Shown here: positions 5,677 through 10,644 of the stretch, in pieces
Numbering within the stretch: the first letter of the stretch is position 1
How the letters are laid out: each line of letters begins with the position of its first letter
From: Palaeococcus ferrophilus DSM 13482
Lineage (GTDB): Archaea > Methanobacteriota_B > Thermococci > Thermococcales > Thermococcaceae
Length of the DNA stretch: 64,000 bases
NCBI RefSeq assembly: GCF_000966265.1
Contig: NZ_LANF01000019.1
Location: forward strand, 62,001-126,000
Direction: 5' to 3'
Translations under genes and position numbers: made by a program
The notes under the pieces: generated by a model
Databases searched by the model: none
Seen by the model: only the letters and a program-made list of their open reading frames with translations
What the model was told of the DNA's origin: nothing

Positions 5677-6561
5677 ATGGAGCGCTGGAAGGTGATTAAG
5701 GCGTTTACACTGGGGCCCCTGCTCGAGGCCACGATACCAAAACCTGGCAACGTGAACCGCTACCATGATTTCGAAGACCTCACCATCTACCACTTCCTAT
5801 TCGGGAACACCGCCCTCCTCAACGTCCTCTACGAGGCAACCGAAGTGGCCAGGCTAGTGGCGAGGGGAACCTACGACCTGAGCGAGGCTGGGATAGGTGA
5901 GCTCATAAAGAGGGCCGTTGCGGAGTCACGGAGGGCACAGGGGGCGAACCCGAACTTCGGCGTTGTGGTGCTCGAGGTGCCGCTGATAATGGCTCTGAGC
6001 GTATCGAAGGGCCTCTTCGATGCCCGGGAAATTGTCAAGCGCCTCATCTCCGCCTCAACAGTGAGGGACACAATGGAGCTCTACAGAGCTATACGGATAG
6101 CCAACCCCAAGGGCATACCGAGCGGGGTTAAGTACGACGTTTACAGCGAGAGCGCCTTCGATGAGCTCTTCAGGGACAGGGTAAACCTGTGGGCCCTGGC
6201 GGAGATGAGCTGCGAGAGGGAGCTAATATTCTGCGAGTGGCTCAACGGTTACGAACTCTCTTACCAGACCTTTCTCCGCCTCAAGGAGCTTGTAAACGAG
6301 CTCGGGCTTGAGGAGGGGACGTTGAGGGCATTCGTGGAGCTGCTGGCGTCCCGCAAGGACACCTTAATTGCCCGAAAAGCGGGGGAGGAAGAGGCACTGC
6401 TGGTAATGCAGAAGGCCAGGGAAGTCCTGAAGGGCTCTATGAGCGTTGAGGAACTCGATAATTTCCTCAGAGAAAAAGGAGACCTCAGAAACCCAGGGAG
6501 CCTCGCGGACGTAACGGCTATCGCGCTGAGCCTCCTGGTACTCGACGGCTTCACTCTTTGA
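5677..6561 (+). CDS. CitG-like triphosphoribosyl-dephospho-CoA synthase family protein
   Basis: The protein has 294 residues. Diagnostic segments are EATIPKPGNVNRYHDFEDL (about 18-36), GANPNFGVVVLEVPL (about 88-102) and the C-terminal RNPGSLADVTAIALSLLVL. CitG makes 2'-(5''-triphosphoribosyl)-3'-dephospho-CoA from ATP and dephospho-CoA for citrate lyase, but Thermococcales have no citrate lyase, so archaeal members probably use a related nucleotide or ribosyl transfer for another purpose. It starts one base after the previous stop, so it may be the last gene of the membrane operon. Its 3' end overlaps the convergent DUF1884 gene by 11 bp. Confidence 0.8.
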   Translation: MERWKVIKAFTLGPLLEATIPKPGNVNRYHDFEDLTIYHFLFGNTALLNVLYEATEVARLVARGTYDLSEAGIGELIKRAVAESRRAQGANPNFGVVVLEVPLIMALSVSKGLFDAREIVKRLISASTVRDTMELYRAIRIANPKGIPSGVKYDVYSESAFDELFRDRVNLWALAEMSCERELIFCEWLNGYELSYQTFLRLKELVNELGLEEGTLRAFVELLASRKDTLIARKAGEEEALLVMQKAREVLKGSMSVEELDNFLREKGDLRNPGSLADVTAIALSLLVLDGFTL

Positions 6562-6835
6562 CTATTTTCACCCTCTTAGCCCCTCCGAGTCCGAGACCTA
6601 TGTTCTTGCTGTCTATGATAAGCGCATCTCCCCCAAGCTCCTCGAGGAGTTTCACGGGGTAGCCGGAGATCTCTGTTACGGCTTCTTCTCCGCCGAACTC
6701 CTCCCTGACCTGCTCGAGGAGGAATTCGTAGGCATCCTTTCCAAAGAGCACCAGGTCGGGGGTGTAGCCGTCCATCTTGAGCTCGTTGGCCTTCTCCTCG
6801 ACCGCACTCAAAACCCTTATGAGTTCCCCGCGCAT
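6551..6835 (-). CDS. DUF1884 protein, family 4 (A-domain) encapsulin-like
   Basis: This 94-residue protein (opening MRGELIRVLSAVEEKANELK, then PDLVLFGKDAYEFLLEQV, EISGYPVKLLEELGGDALII and a closing GLGGAKRVKIV) matches DUF1884 as I remember it, including Pyrococcus furiosus PF0899. That fold corresponds to the A-domain of the HK97 capsid protein, and the family has been classed as family 4 encapsulins, known mainly from hyperthermophilic archaea and usually in two-gene operons with a metabolic enzyme. Here the upstream operon mates are marC and surE, 45 bp away, and no standard cargo enzyme is adjacent. Shell formation is not established for this protein. Confidence 0.8.
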   Translation of the reverse strand: MRGELIRVLSAVEEKANELKMDGYTPDLVLFGKDAYEFLLEQVREEFGGEEAVTEISGYPVKLLEELGGDALIIDSKNIGLGLGGAKRVKIVKE

Positions 6836-6880
6836 GTTATCACCGTGGTATCTTCGACGTCCGGAGTTAAAAACCTTGGC

Positions 6881-7510
6881 TCAGAGGCCGAAGGCTCCCT
6901 TAATGCCGTTTATAACCATCTGCACCGCCATGGATGCAAGGATGAGTCCCATCATCCTCGTGAGGACTTTTATCCCGACCTTTCCGAGCCTCTTTTCAAT
7001 GCCCTCCGCAGAGAGGAGTGTGAGGTAAACAGCGGCGCTTATGAGGGTTATCACTCCAAGGATTATCCCGTTCTCCAGGGGATTGGACGCCTGTGCCATG
7101 TAAACCATCACCGTTGTTATTGCCCCCGGTCCAGATATCAGGGGGATTCCTAGGGGGATTATGGCCATGTCCGCGGCCGTTATCTCCTCCTCTTCGTCCT
7201 CGCTTATCTTGACCTTGGAAATCTGTCCGCTGAGCATATCGAGCGCCATCCTGAAGAGGAGTATCCCTCCCGCTATGGCGAAGGCGTCCACGGTGGAGCC
7301 GAAGAAGCGGAATATCCACTGCCCGACGAGCGCGAACGTTACCAAGGTAACCAGCACCGTGATGAACACCCTCTTGGCAACGCGCCTCTTGCAATCCTTC
7401 GAGAGCCCGTGGGTAACCCCCAGAAAAACCGGAACCGCACCCACGGGGTTCGTGATGGCGAACAGTCCAGCGAAGAAGAACGCGAACTCCTTGAATACCC
7501 ACAGCTCCAC
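6881..7510 (-). CDS. MarC/SnatA family membrane protein (neutral amino-acid transport)
   Basis: The protein has 209 residues and six hydrophobic segments. The signature FAITNPVGAVPVFLGVT near the N-terminus and IPLGIPLISGPGAITTVMVY in the second half are the paired N-P-x-G and G-P-G repeats of the MarC family. A Thermococcus member, SnatA, has been reported to transport small neutral amino acids, so transport of alanine or glycine type substrates is likely. The start is one base from the surE stop, and the DUF1884 gene follows after 45 bp, so the three genes form one transcription unit. Confidence 0.88.
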   Translation of the reverse strand: MELWVFKEFAFFFAGLFAITNPVGAVPVFLGVTHGLSKDCKRRVAKRVFITVLVTLVTFALVGQWIFRFFGSTVDAFAIAGGILLFRMALDMLSGQISKVKISEDEEEEITAADMAIIPLGIPLISGPGAITTVMVYMAQASNPLENGIILGVITLISAAVYLTLLSAEGIEKRLGKVGIKVLTRMMGLILASMAVQMVINGIKGAFGL

Positions 7511-7511
7511 G

Positions 7512-8285
7512 TCAGACCCTCCTGAGGTACTCCAGCTTTCTTAGATCAACTCCGGCGGTCATGTCTATGTTTATAGGTGTTACGCTCACCTTCCTCTCCA
7601 CCTTCAGGGCGTAGGCATCGGTACCGGGCTCGAACTCCCTCCTCTTTCTCCCCACTATCCAGTAGTAGGAGTGTCCCCTGGGGTCTACGCGCTCCTCGAT
7701 GGTGGGACAGTATCGTTTTCTCGCGAGTCTTGTGAGTTCCATGGGCGTTTCGGGTGTTGCATCGCTCGGAATGTTGACGTTGAGCATATCAACGCCCTCG
7801 GGGAGCCCCTCCTCGAGCACGGCCTCCGCTATCTTCCTGAGGAAAAATGACGCCGTGGAGAAGTCAATGTCCTCCCCCTCCCCCAGAACCTTCTTCCACT
7901 CGACCTCGAGGCTAATGGCTATGCTGGGTATACCATGGGTGGCGGCCTCTATAGCGGCGGAGGCCGTCCCCGAAACGGTTATCTCCGTGCTCAGATTCTC
8001 ACCGAGGTTTATGCCGCTTACGGCGAGGTCGAACTCACTGAAACGGGCCATTGCAAAAATCACGCAGTCGGTTGGTGTTCCGTCAATACCGTAGGCCACC
8101 CTCGCACCGGGCACCTCTATGAGCTTGGCCCTAAGCGGCCTGTGGAGTGTCATGGCCCGACCGCTAGCGCTCCTCTGGAAGAGGGGTGCCGCAACGTAGA
8201 CATCTCCCAGGTCACGCAGGGCTTCAACGGCCGCTCTAAGTCCCCTGGAGTATATGCCGTCATCGTTTGTGATGAGTATCCTCAT
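7512..8285 (-). CDS. surE: 5'/3'-nucleotidase SurE
   Basis: The protein has 257 residues, normal for SurE. It begins MRILITNDDGIYSRG; Asp8 and Asp9 of TNDDG bind the metal, QRSASGRAMTL supplies the conserved Ser and GINLGEN the conserved Asn. The later IDGTPTDCV and HGIPSIAISL segments are also typical. SurE removes phosphate from nucleoside monophosphates and is found in most archaea. It is the first gene of surE-marC-DUF1884. The preceding intergenic region has a minus-strand TATA-like box (TTTATATCC, about 8424-8432), which would give a leader of about 110 bases. Confidence 0.95.
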   Translation of the reverse strand: MRILITNDDGIYSRGLRAAVEALRDLGDVYVAAPLFQRSASGRAMTLHRPLRAKLIEVPGARVAYGIDGTPTDCVIFAMARFSEFDLAVSGINLGENLSTEITVSGTASAAIEAATHGIPSIAISLEVEWKKVLGEGEDIDFSTASFFLRKIAEAVLEEGLPEGVDMLNVNIPSDATPETPMELTRLARKRYCPTIEERVDPRGHSYYWIVGRKRREFEPGTDAYALKVERKVSVTPINIDMTAGVDLRKLEYLRRV

Positions 8286-8585
8286 GTTGGTCCCTCATTC
8301 TCTCTCGATTCTCCCTAAGATTTTTCGATCCGTAAAGCTACCCCTGATTTCCCATGCGGGAGAATTTTGCCCCGCGAGCCATGCATTCTCACGGAATCCC
8401 CCTTCCTCACATTTTTTCACTTTGCTGGTGGGATATAAATAGGTTCCGCCATGACCCCCTCGCGGGTTTTGTTTTCCCCCACCCAAATCCTGTGATGGCA
8501 TTTTCAAAATCTTGAAATATTTTCACAGGAAAAAGATTTTATACCACAAAATACATAGAATTTATAGACACCCGGGGTGATACCC
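8286..8585. promoter_or_regulatory. Divergent intergenic region with two TATA-like boxes
   Basis: This 300-base gap separates surE (minus) and the unknown gene at 8586 (plus). GATATAAATAGG (about 8424-8435) can be read as a promoter on either strand. A second box, AGATTTTATACC (about 8534-8545), sits 40 bases before the ATG at 8586 and suits that gene. Between them GCCAT (8447-8451) can pair with ATGGC (8494-8498), enclosing a 14-codon open frame (ATG at 8450, TGA at 8492-8494). A short leader or small RNA is possible but not demonstrated. Confidence 0.35.
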
Positions 8586-9623
8586 ATGGAGGAAGTGAAA
8601 TCAATTTCTGTTATAAGCAAATCGGCCCTTCAGGATCACCTCCAGAGGGAAAGCGGGCTGGTACTTGTGGCGTGCGAAGGGAGGCCAATCATGGTGCTCT
8701 CCTCCGGCAGACTCGTCCACGTCCTCGACGAAGTTCCCACTGTGCTTAAGGACGTTTCCATATACCGCATTGACAAATGGGAGCTCCTTGATGCTCTAAA
8801 CGGCGAGTTGAAGCTTCCGGAAAAGGTTGAAAAATCCCGCAGTCCAAGGGTGGTTGAGTTCTCCATGAGCCTCGACCTCCCCCCGGAGCTGTCGCTCAAG
8901 GTTGAGAACGCAATTCTCGACTTCATCAAAAGGCTGGCCCATTCCAACCTTGCGGTGAGCTCCATAAGTGCAAGCGGCAGGGTACGTCAGGGATTCACGG
9001 GAACCAACATCCTCCTTCTTCGCGTCTCCATGGGGGGCTACACTACGGGGGACGTTCCGGTGGAGGCTCTGGCGCGTGAGATGGCATCGAGCGTTGAGAG
9101 GGAGGTTGGGTTTGAAGTAAGGGTTTACATCAAGGAGGCCAGCTTCGAGCGTGTTTCTGATCTCCCGATTGTGAGGTTCACAAGGAGCTTCGTGAACTTC
9201 AGGGGTGGCAGGATAATCGAGATACCCCTTCAGCGGCAGGGTAAGGTCATTCCAAAGGTTGACAGGGCAAAGCTTGAGGCCGAGGTTGAGAGGCTATTGA
9301 AAGAGGCGGGAATTTCCCGGGAGCTTGTGGAGCTGACGAAGGAGGGAGGGGAGCGTGTAAGCGTCGGGAGCATCGAGCGCGAGGTCATGAGCGAGCTCTC
9401 GGGTATCAGGGGCGTTTCCCTAAACTGGGTGAAGCTCACGAAGGGTGCATCAGGCTACAGAGTGACCATAGGGGTTGACAGGACCTCAAGGGACGTTACC
9501 GATTCGGAGCTTATGAACGTTCTCCGGGAAGCCCTGAAGCGTGCGGAGGGAAGAATAAAGGCGCTCGGTAGGGGCGTTGGCTTCGAGGGAGCATATCTGG
9601 TGGTCGAGAGGGACATCTACTGA
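8586..9623 (+). CDS. Conserved hypothetical protein, no recognised domain
   Basis: The protein has 345 residues and is soluble: no signal peptide or membrane segment. Three parts can be seen. Residues 1-85 (MEEVKSISVISKSALQDHL; then DKWELLDALNGEL) look like a small mixed alpha/beta domain. The middle, about 90-210, has alternating strands and a KVENAILDFIKRLA helix. The C-terminal half is charged with predicted helices (DRAKLEAEVERLLKEAGI) and strands. I do not recognise it. GGGGTGAT precedes the chosen ATG; a GTG at 8577 is less likely. It ends 46 bp before RaSEA on the same strand, so the two may be co-transcribed. Confidence 0.75.
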   Translation: MEEVKSISVISKSALQDHLQRESGLVLVACEGRPIMVLSSGRLVHVLDEVPTVLKDVSIYRIDKWELLDALNGELKLPEKVEKSRSPRVVEFSMSLDLPPELSLKVENAILDFIKRLAHSNLAVSSISASGRVRQGFTGTNILLLRVSMGGYTTGDVPVEALAREMASSVEREVGFEVRVYIKEASFERVSDLPIVRFTRSFVNFRGGRIIEIPLQRQGKVIPKVDRAKLEAEVERLLKEAGISRELVELTKEGGERVSVGSIEREVMSELSGIRGVSLNWVKLTKGASGYRVTIGVDRTSRDVTDSELMNVLREALKRAEGRIKALGRGVGFEGAYLVVERDIY

Positions 9624-9669
9624 CCAAACCCTTAAAAAGGGGCTCCCCGACCTACCCCCAGGTGAGAAG

Positions 9670-10644
9670 ATGAGCTACTGGACGAGCGAGGACAACGTGG
9701 CCGGAAAACCGGGGACGGCACTCTTCATAATCCTGCCCACGATAGGCTGCTACCGCTTTAGGATTGGGAAGGCCTGCTACATGTGCTCCTATCCAACCGC
9801 GGCACCAAAGGTCAGGTGGAGCCAGGAGGCAATAGTCGACTACGTGAGGGAGGCGCTCAGGAAGATTGAAGGAAAGGAAGGCCCCTTCGCCGTGAGGATG
9901 TTCACCTCGGGCTCATTCCTTGACAACGGCGAGCTCAAGCCTGAAACGAGGAAGAAAATCTTCCAACTCCTCGCGGAGCTTGACGAGGTTGAGGAGATCG
10001 TCATCGAGAGCAGGAGCGAGCTGGTGAGGTACGAGGCTGTTAAGGAGCTTGCGGAGATAGTCCCTGACAAGCACTTTGAAGTCGCCATAGGCCTTGAGAC
10101 GGCGAATGATGACATAGCCGACGTCTCCATCAACAAAGGAAACACCTTTGCCGACTTCGTGAAGGCCGCAGAGATAACCCACAAAGCGGGCGCTAAAGTT
10201 AAGACCTACCTCCTCCTCAAGCCGATCTTCCTATCGGAGCGCGATGGCATTGAGGACGCCAAGGCGAGCATAATCAAGGCAGAGCCTTACACTGACACCT
10301 TCTCCATCAACATAACCGACATCCAGAAGGGGACGCTCTACGAGAGGTTGTGGGAGAAGAAGGAGTACCGCCCGCCGTGGCTCTGGAGCGCGGTTGAGGT
10401 TCTCATCTGGGCAAAGAAGAGGTTTCCCAACAAGAGAATCCTTAGCGACCCTGTAGGGGCTGGCTCGAAGCGCGGACCGCACAACTGCCTCACCGACTAC
10501 GACAGAGTCATCGGTAAGGCCATAAAGAAGTTCTCAGCGACGCAGGACTTGAGTTATATTGCGAACCTCAAACCGGAGTGCCACGAGCGCTGGAGCTACA
10601 TCATCGAGAATTCTCTCCTCGACTGGCAGCTGGTGACGTGGTGA
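9670..10644 (+). CDS. Archaeosine biosynthesis radical SAM protein RaSEA
   Basis: The protein has 324 residues. The cluster-binding cysteines are in GCYRFRIGKACYMCSYP (about residues 25-41), a long-spaced radical SAM motif typical of the RaSEA/TIGR01210 group; GLETANDDIADVSINKG and NITDIQKGTLYERLW are further family segments. With ArcS (not in this window), RaSEA turns preQ0-lysine at position 15 of tRNA into archaeosine, using SAM and an iron-sulfur cluster. The ATG at 9670 follows GGTGAG; the upstream frame is open but lacks a better start. TATA-like CTTAAAAAGG lies about 40 bp before it. Confidence 0.88.
   Translation: MSYWTSEDNVAGKPGTALFIILPTIGCYRFRIGKACYMCSYPTAAPKVRWSQEAIVDYVREALRKIEGKEGPFAVRMFTSGSFLDNGELKPETRKKIFQLLAELDEVEEIVIESRSELVRYEAVKELAEIVPDKHFEVAIGLETANDDIADVSINKGNTFADFVKAAEITHKAGAKVKTYLLLKPIFLSERDGIEDAKASIIKAEPYTDTFSINITDIQKGTLYERLWEKKEYRPPWLWSAVEVLIWAKKRFPNKRILSDPVGAGSKRGPHNCLTDYDRVIGKAIKKFSATQDLSYIANLKPECHERWSYIIENSLLDWQLVTW

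Follow-up and report, generated by a model that had tools for sequence, protein, structure and literature searches.

Family 4 of the encapsulins was divided by Andreas and Giessen (2021) into 4A, with hydrogenase and OsmC types, and 4B, with GAPDH and DeoC types (PMC8346489). In their model an enzyme gene is accompanied by a downstream A-domain gene, with orphans also admitted; Thermococcus and Pyrococcus species generally carry one 4A and one 4B operon each, and a membrane protein resembling MarC is frequent in loci of the OsmC type (PMC8346489). The HK97 A-domain fold has been published for the structure 2PK8 on the basis of DALI, although the function of the family was termed speculative (PMC8346489). 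Proteomics data have been cited for a complex between GAPDH and the A-domain protein in P. furiosus, which implies that at least the 4B members bind enzymes (PMC8346489). An origin of the family from the shell proteins of viruses is presumed. In the open literature we have seen no experimental study of family 4 published since. That the upstream enzyme is the cargo is the main published hint as to what the 4A proteins do.

The window that we have analyzed is a stretch of 64,000 nucleotides from Palaeococcus ferrophilus. It contains ENCP4 (formerly DUF1884; PF08967), located on the reverse strand at 6551-6835 and encoding 94 amino acids (Pfam score of 94 bits, cut-off 31.4). On the same strand and upstream are genes for the membrane protein MarC (6881-7510; PF01914, 201 bits) and the nucleotidase SurE (7512-8285; PF01975, 182 bits), with spacings of 45 bases between MarC and ENCP4 and of 1 base between SurE and MarC. 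A CitG-like gene on the forward strand (5677-6561; PF01874, 181 bits), the last of a PspC-DUF4097-CitG group, is convergent with ENCP4, and the stop ends of the two overlap by 11 bases (6551-6561). The products of all four genes score above their own Pfam cut-offs, and the open reading frames and Pfam matches confirm the coordinates, gene order and overlap described in an earlier sequence-only reading of this DNA, together with its assignment of the protein to DUF1884 and family 4. A Shine-Dalgarno-like GGTGAT (6839-6844, reverse strand), near the GGDGRD motif (PMC5316973), lies ahead of the ENCP4 ATG. Divergent from surE, at 8577-9623 on the forward strand, is an open reading frame of 348 amino acids with no Pfam match.

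The match of ENCP4 to PF08967 spans profile positions 1-81 of 81. Among solved structures its nearest match is P. furiosus PF0899 (2PK8), aligned over residues 2-93 with E = 6e-29, and at 94 amino acids ENCP4 belongs to the same ∼100-residue, single-domain size class. In alignments ENCP4 is 53-71% identical to 4A proteins and 24-33% identical to 4B proteins, the former having a segment between the two main helices that is longer by ∼11 residues, and 20 residues are invariant across 86 4A orthologues. Judged by these comparisons ENCP4 is a real but ordinary member of family 4A. PF0899, a 4A protein of the hydrogenase type, differs in its surroundings, with a hydrogenase neighborhood and no convergent CitG. 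Matches to PF08967 occur in 92 of 94 Thermococcaceae genomes, including all 74 complete ones, mostly as two copies, and were not found in the other genomes of the same phylum that were searched. A scan of genome contigs with the 4A/4B alignment, using a single strict pattern, returned Thermococcales only; the published bacterial 4C members were not recovered by this pattern, which does not speak against 4C.

The second ENCP4 copy in the 2.2-Mb genome of P. ferrophilus, on the same contig as the 4A copy, is a 4B gene whose start codon shares one base with the stop codon of deoC. Across the survey the DeoC-linked 4B gene overlaps or abuts deoC in 11/11 cases (-14 to +1 bases); the GAPDH-linked 4B genes start 63-86 bases downstream of GAPDH. 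The sequence-only reading had listed hydrogenase, DeoC, GAPOR and sugar isomerase as cargo types, of which the first two appear in the published list of hydrogenase, OsmC, GAPDH and DeoC and the last two do not (PMC8346489).

Among described systems the locus most resembles the 4A OsmC(-MarC) type (PMC8346489), with which it shares the protein family, the protein length, MarC directly upstream, occurrence in Thermococcaceae and a second, 4B copy behind deoC. It differs in that SurE stands in the place of OsmC, that the OsmC block is found on another contig, and that 4A is probably transcribed alone. The presence of marC beside a 4A gene is not new, since the OsmC type was published with a frequent MarC-like protein, and the replacement of OsmC by SurE is a variant of that arrangement.

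We have read 86 4A genes of the Thermococcaceae with approximately 5 kb on each side, less at contig ends. The upstream position is taken by OsmC, with or without MarC, in 59 loci, by hydrogenase genes in 8, DUF2101-MarC in 7, SurE-MarC in 3, a DHH/OB protein in 3, the isoleucyl-tRNA synthetase region in 2 and Maf in 1, with 3 unassigned. Distributing these seven gene types on the 4A tree, which is built from ∼94 columns and weakly resolved, requires at least 10 changes. In 37 of the 86 loci the gene directly upstream of 4A is marC, an adjacency that may reflect a weak functional tie. Between marC and 4A the sister genome G001 carries a CRISPR array with 27 or more repeats (L077 5813-7608), and in G007 2.6 kb lie between HydA and 4A. 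Repeat-like open reading frames are seen in the marC-4A gap of G048 and G059 as well. In about a dozen genomes a protein family of ∼290-313 amino acids, whose members have a hydrophobic N-terminal region and a motif that includes Cys-x-Cys, is encoded between MarC and 4A; examples on the reverse strand are L093 6283-7149 and L102 5345-6286, the latter with no Pfam match.

When the upstream regions are aligned a T/A-rich hexamer emerges at a fixed distance from the 4A start, whatever gene is upstream. We have described it by the pattern YTTWAR in a window of -48 to -33 from the start codon, the pattern having been chosen after viewing the sequences. So defined, the box is present in 77 of 86 4A loci, which come from related genomes and are not independent, compared to a mean of 8 and a maximum of 16 in order-1 shuffles and 2 to 6 matches in neighboring windows of equal width. 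Control starts seldom have it (0/20 for the hydrogenase operon genes HydG/HydD/HydA, 1/31 for DUF4097 and 1/14 for 4B), and it is found at 42 of 62 likely first genes such as PspC and at 47 of 49 MarC starts family-wide; for OsmC and SurE only a small number of control starts were available, or their positions were uncertain. In the window the box is TTTTAA (6867-6872, reverse strand, within GGTTTTTAAC), 37 bases 5' of the ENCP4 start, in line with the maximum at -36 to -39 across the family; the marC and surE starts are without such a box. In Thermococcus onnurineus the TATA element of promoters is located at -30 to -20 of the transcription start site, and the 5' UTR has a median length of 12 nt (PMC5316973), so that a TATA element is expected at approximately -42 to -32 from the start codon. 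A TATA-like stretch is retained before 4A in G001, past the CRISPR array, and in G007, past the 2.6 kb gap. A sigma-70 promoter scan was set aside as not applicable to archaea.

These results suggest that 4A is probably transcribed on its own, from its own promoter. The promoter is deduced from pattern and position rather than from RNA, and read-through from marC into ENCP4 may occur. The operon with marC and surE that had been proposed for ENCP4 stands only as a same-strand neighborhood, and the sequence evidence opposes co-transcription as the main mode of ENCP4 expression. With an upstream gene that varies and a TATA-like box of its own, 4A departs from the pairing of an enzyme gene and a downstream A-domain gene in one conserved operon, which is typical of family 4 and not strictly required. 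The cargo rule fails for 4A with respect to linkage, promoter and persistence and passes for the DeoC-linked 4B genes, so that work on enzyme binding is best directed to 4B, and 4A is best studied as a protein in isolation. A useful by-product of the comparison is this difference between 4B, coupled to an enzyme, and 4A, which is not.

The explanation that we favor, with somewhat better than even confidence, is that ENCP4 is a 4A orthologue with its own promoter, a lasting neighbor in CitG and shifting genes upstream, and that it serves in trans as a scaffold or stabilizer rather than as the dedicated shell of an enzyme. The sequences strongly indicate that 4A has a promoter of its own and that the upstream genes, SurE-MarC in the present case, change through rearrangement. 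The protein itself would be a small self-associating (oligomeric) scaffold or stabilizer with the HK97 A-domain fold, produced independently and acting without a fixed cargo or enzyme partner, and presumably not enclosing whichever enzyme happens to be encoded upstream. A more sweeping generalization, to which we give somewhat less than even weight, is that the 4A proteins are independently transcribed housekeeping proteins that form no cargo shells, a true enzyme partner (DeoC or GAPDH) existing only for 4B. If so, the OsmC and hydrogenase types would merely reflect chance in gene order, and CitG would be the neighbor to which 4A is durably linked.

Outside g2, a genus that is probably Pyrococcus since its 4A protein is almost identical in sequence to 2PK8, CitG is convergent with 4A in 77/77 loci, mostly followed by DUF4097 and PspC. 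In 76 of these the two genes share 8-17 bases at their stop ends, with a frame register that never varies. The comparison strongly indicates that CitG is the lasting neighbor of 4A outside g2, and the only one. One could suppose that the tie to CitG is what is conserved, with the overlapping 3' ends providing mutual antisense control or with a function shared between 4A and the PspC-DUF4097-CitG group. We consider this unlikely: the nine g2 genomes lack the convergent CitG and retain 4A, the sole break in the overlap (G036) has a TnpB-like transposase gene inserted between ENCP4 and CitG (L118 3804-4985), and convergent overlaps can persist simply for the reason that their disruption would harm the end of a gene.

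A dedicated cargo might instead be encoded elsewhere, with OsmC still the true partner of 4A though on another contig in P. ferrophilus. The 59 loci with OsmC upstream count in favor of this proposal, as does the retention in this genome of an OsmC (65% identical) along with its SPL and peptidase neighbors, in a block that is without ENCP4. Against it, adjacency to 4A has been lost in several lineages, 4A of the hydrogenase type follows a different enzyme, and the TATA-like box is found at 4A also in loci with OsmC directly beside it (21/21). OsmC as a dedicated cargo encoded at a distance is quite improbable.

There remains SurE, of which 79 of 94 genomes have one copy; the g2 (Pyrococcus-like) genomes, all of which keep 4A, lack it in 9/9 cases. 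In only 3 of the 41 genomes with both genes on one contig is SurE within 4 kb of 4A, all three of this genus (g1), where the order SurE-MarC-4A is found in 3/3 genomes; in the other 38 the distance exceeds 37 kb. The usual neighbor of SurE is a radical SAM gene (27/30 loci), a copy of which is present in the window at 9613-10644. In two g5 genomes (G087 and G089; L151 and L168) SurE is followed directly by MarC with no ENCP4 adjacent, and their 4A gene is behind OsmC elsewhere. A search for a cargo-loading tail found no C-terminal extension in the 4A-linked SurE copies. Because 4A appears to own a promoter and its upstream neighbors vary by genus, SurE beside 4A is probably a chance neighbor, a local accident; as read from gene order, this is a reshuffling around MarC and not a new cargo system. 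The idea that SurE is enclosed or bound by 4A in g1 in OsmC's stead, consistent with the invariant gene order there and with the published model of an enzyme plus downstream A-domain gene (PMC8346489), is very unlikely in the face of the TATA-like box of 4A, the CRISPR array that splits marC from 4A, SurE-MarC pairs that stand without ENCP4, the absence of SurE from the nine g2 genomes, its distance from 4A in 38 of 41 others and the lack of a C-terminal extension in linked SurE copies. The sequence-only reading had offered SurE as a possible enzyme partner, a suggestion that our results do not support, and its doubt that cargo is encoded beside ENCP4 was well placed. It had also named beforehand a survey of gene neighborhoods as a means of overturning it, and to a large extent the survey does so, the arrangement proving peculiar to one genus (not to one genome).

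Whether a 4A protein could form a shell at all is a separate matter. In HK97 capsids the capsomers are linked by the P-domain, the E-loop and the N-arm. Since ∼94 residues leave no room for these parts, a closed icosahedral shell built by 4A alone is unlikely, and small rings or dimers are more likely. The HK97 A-domain fold of ENCP4 would rest on the published analysis of 2PK8. When we compared the family 4 profile with those of 18 HK97-type capsid proteins, gp5 residues 255-318, the expected A-domain segment, were aligned with a probability of 0.2%, far below significance. Scored directly against the family 4 profile, neither capsids nor family 1 encapsulins exceeded shuffled sequences. Nothing credible was returned in a tblastn search of ENCP4 against phages or in a search of PHROGs. 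We have filed ENCP4, on the strength of its family membership, in the encapsulin sequence family only and not as a functional encapsulin that forms a shell and loads cargo. Family 1 encapsulins (PF04454), for which the HK97 A-domain fold is published as shared, differ in being full-length shell proteins with the remaining HK97 domains and in having no significant similarity to the family 4 profile. One such protein, of full length and with a ferritin-like domain fused at its N-terminus, is encoded in the same genome (contig C4, ∼98.5-99.5 kb; L141 4956-6044, reverse strand), and family 1 encapsulins are present in only 3 of the 17 genomes of the Thermococcaceae that were checked.
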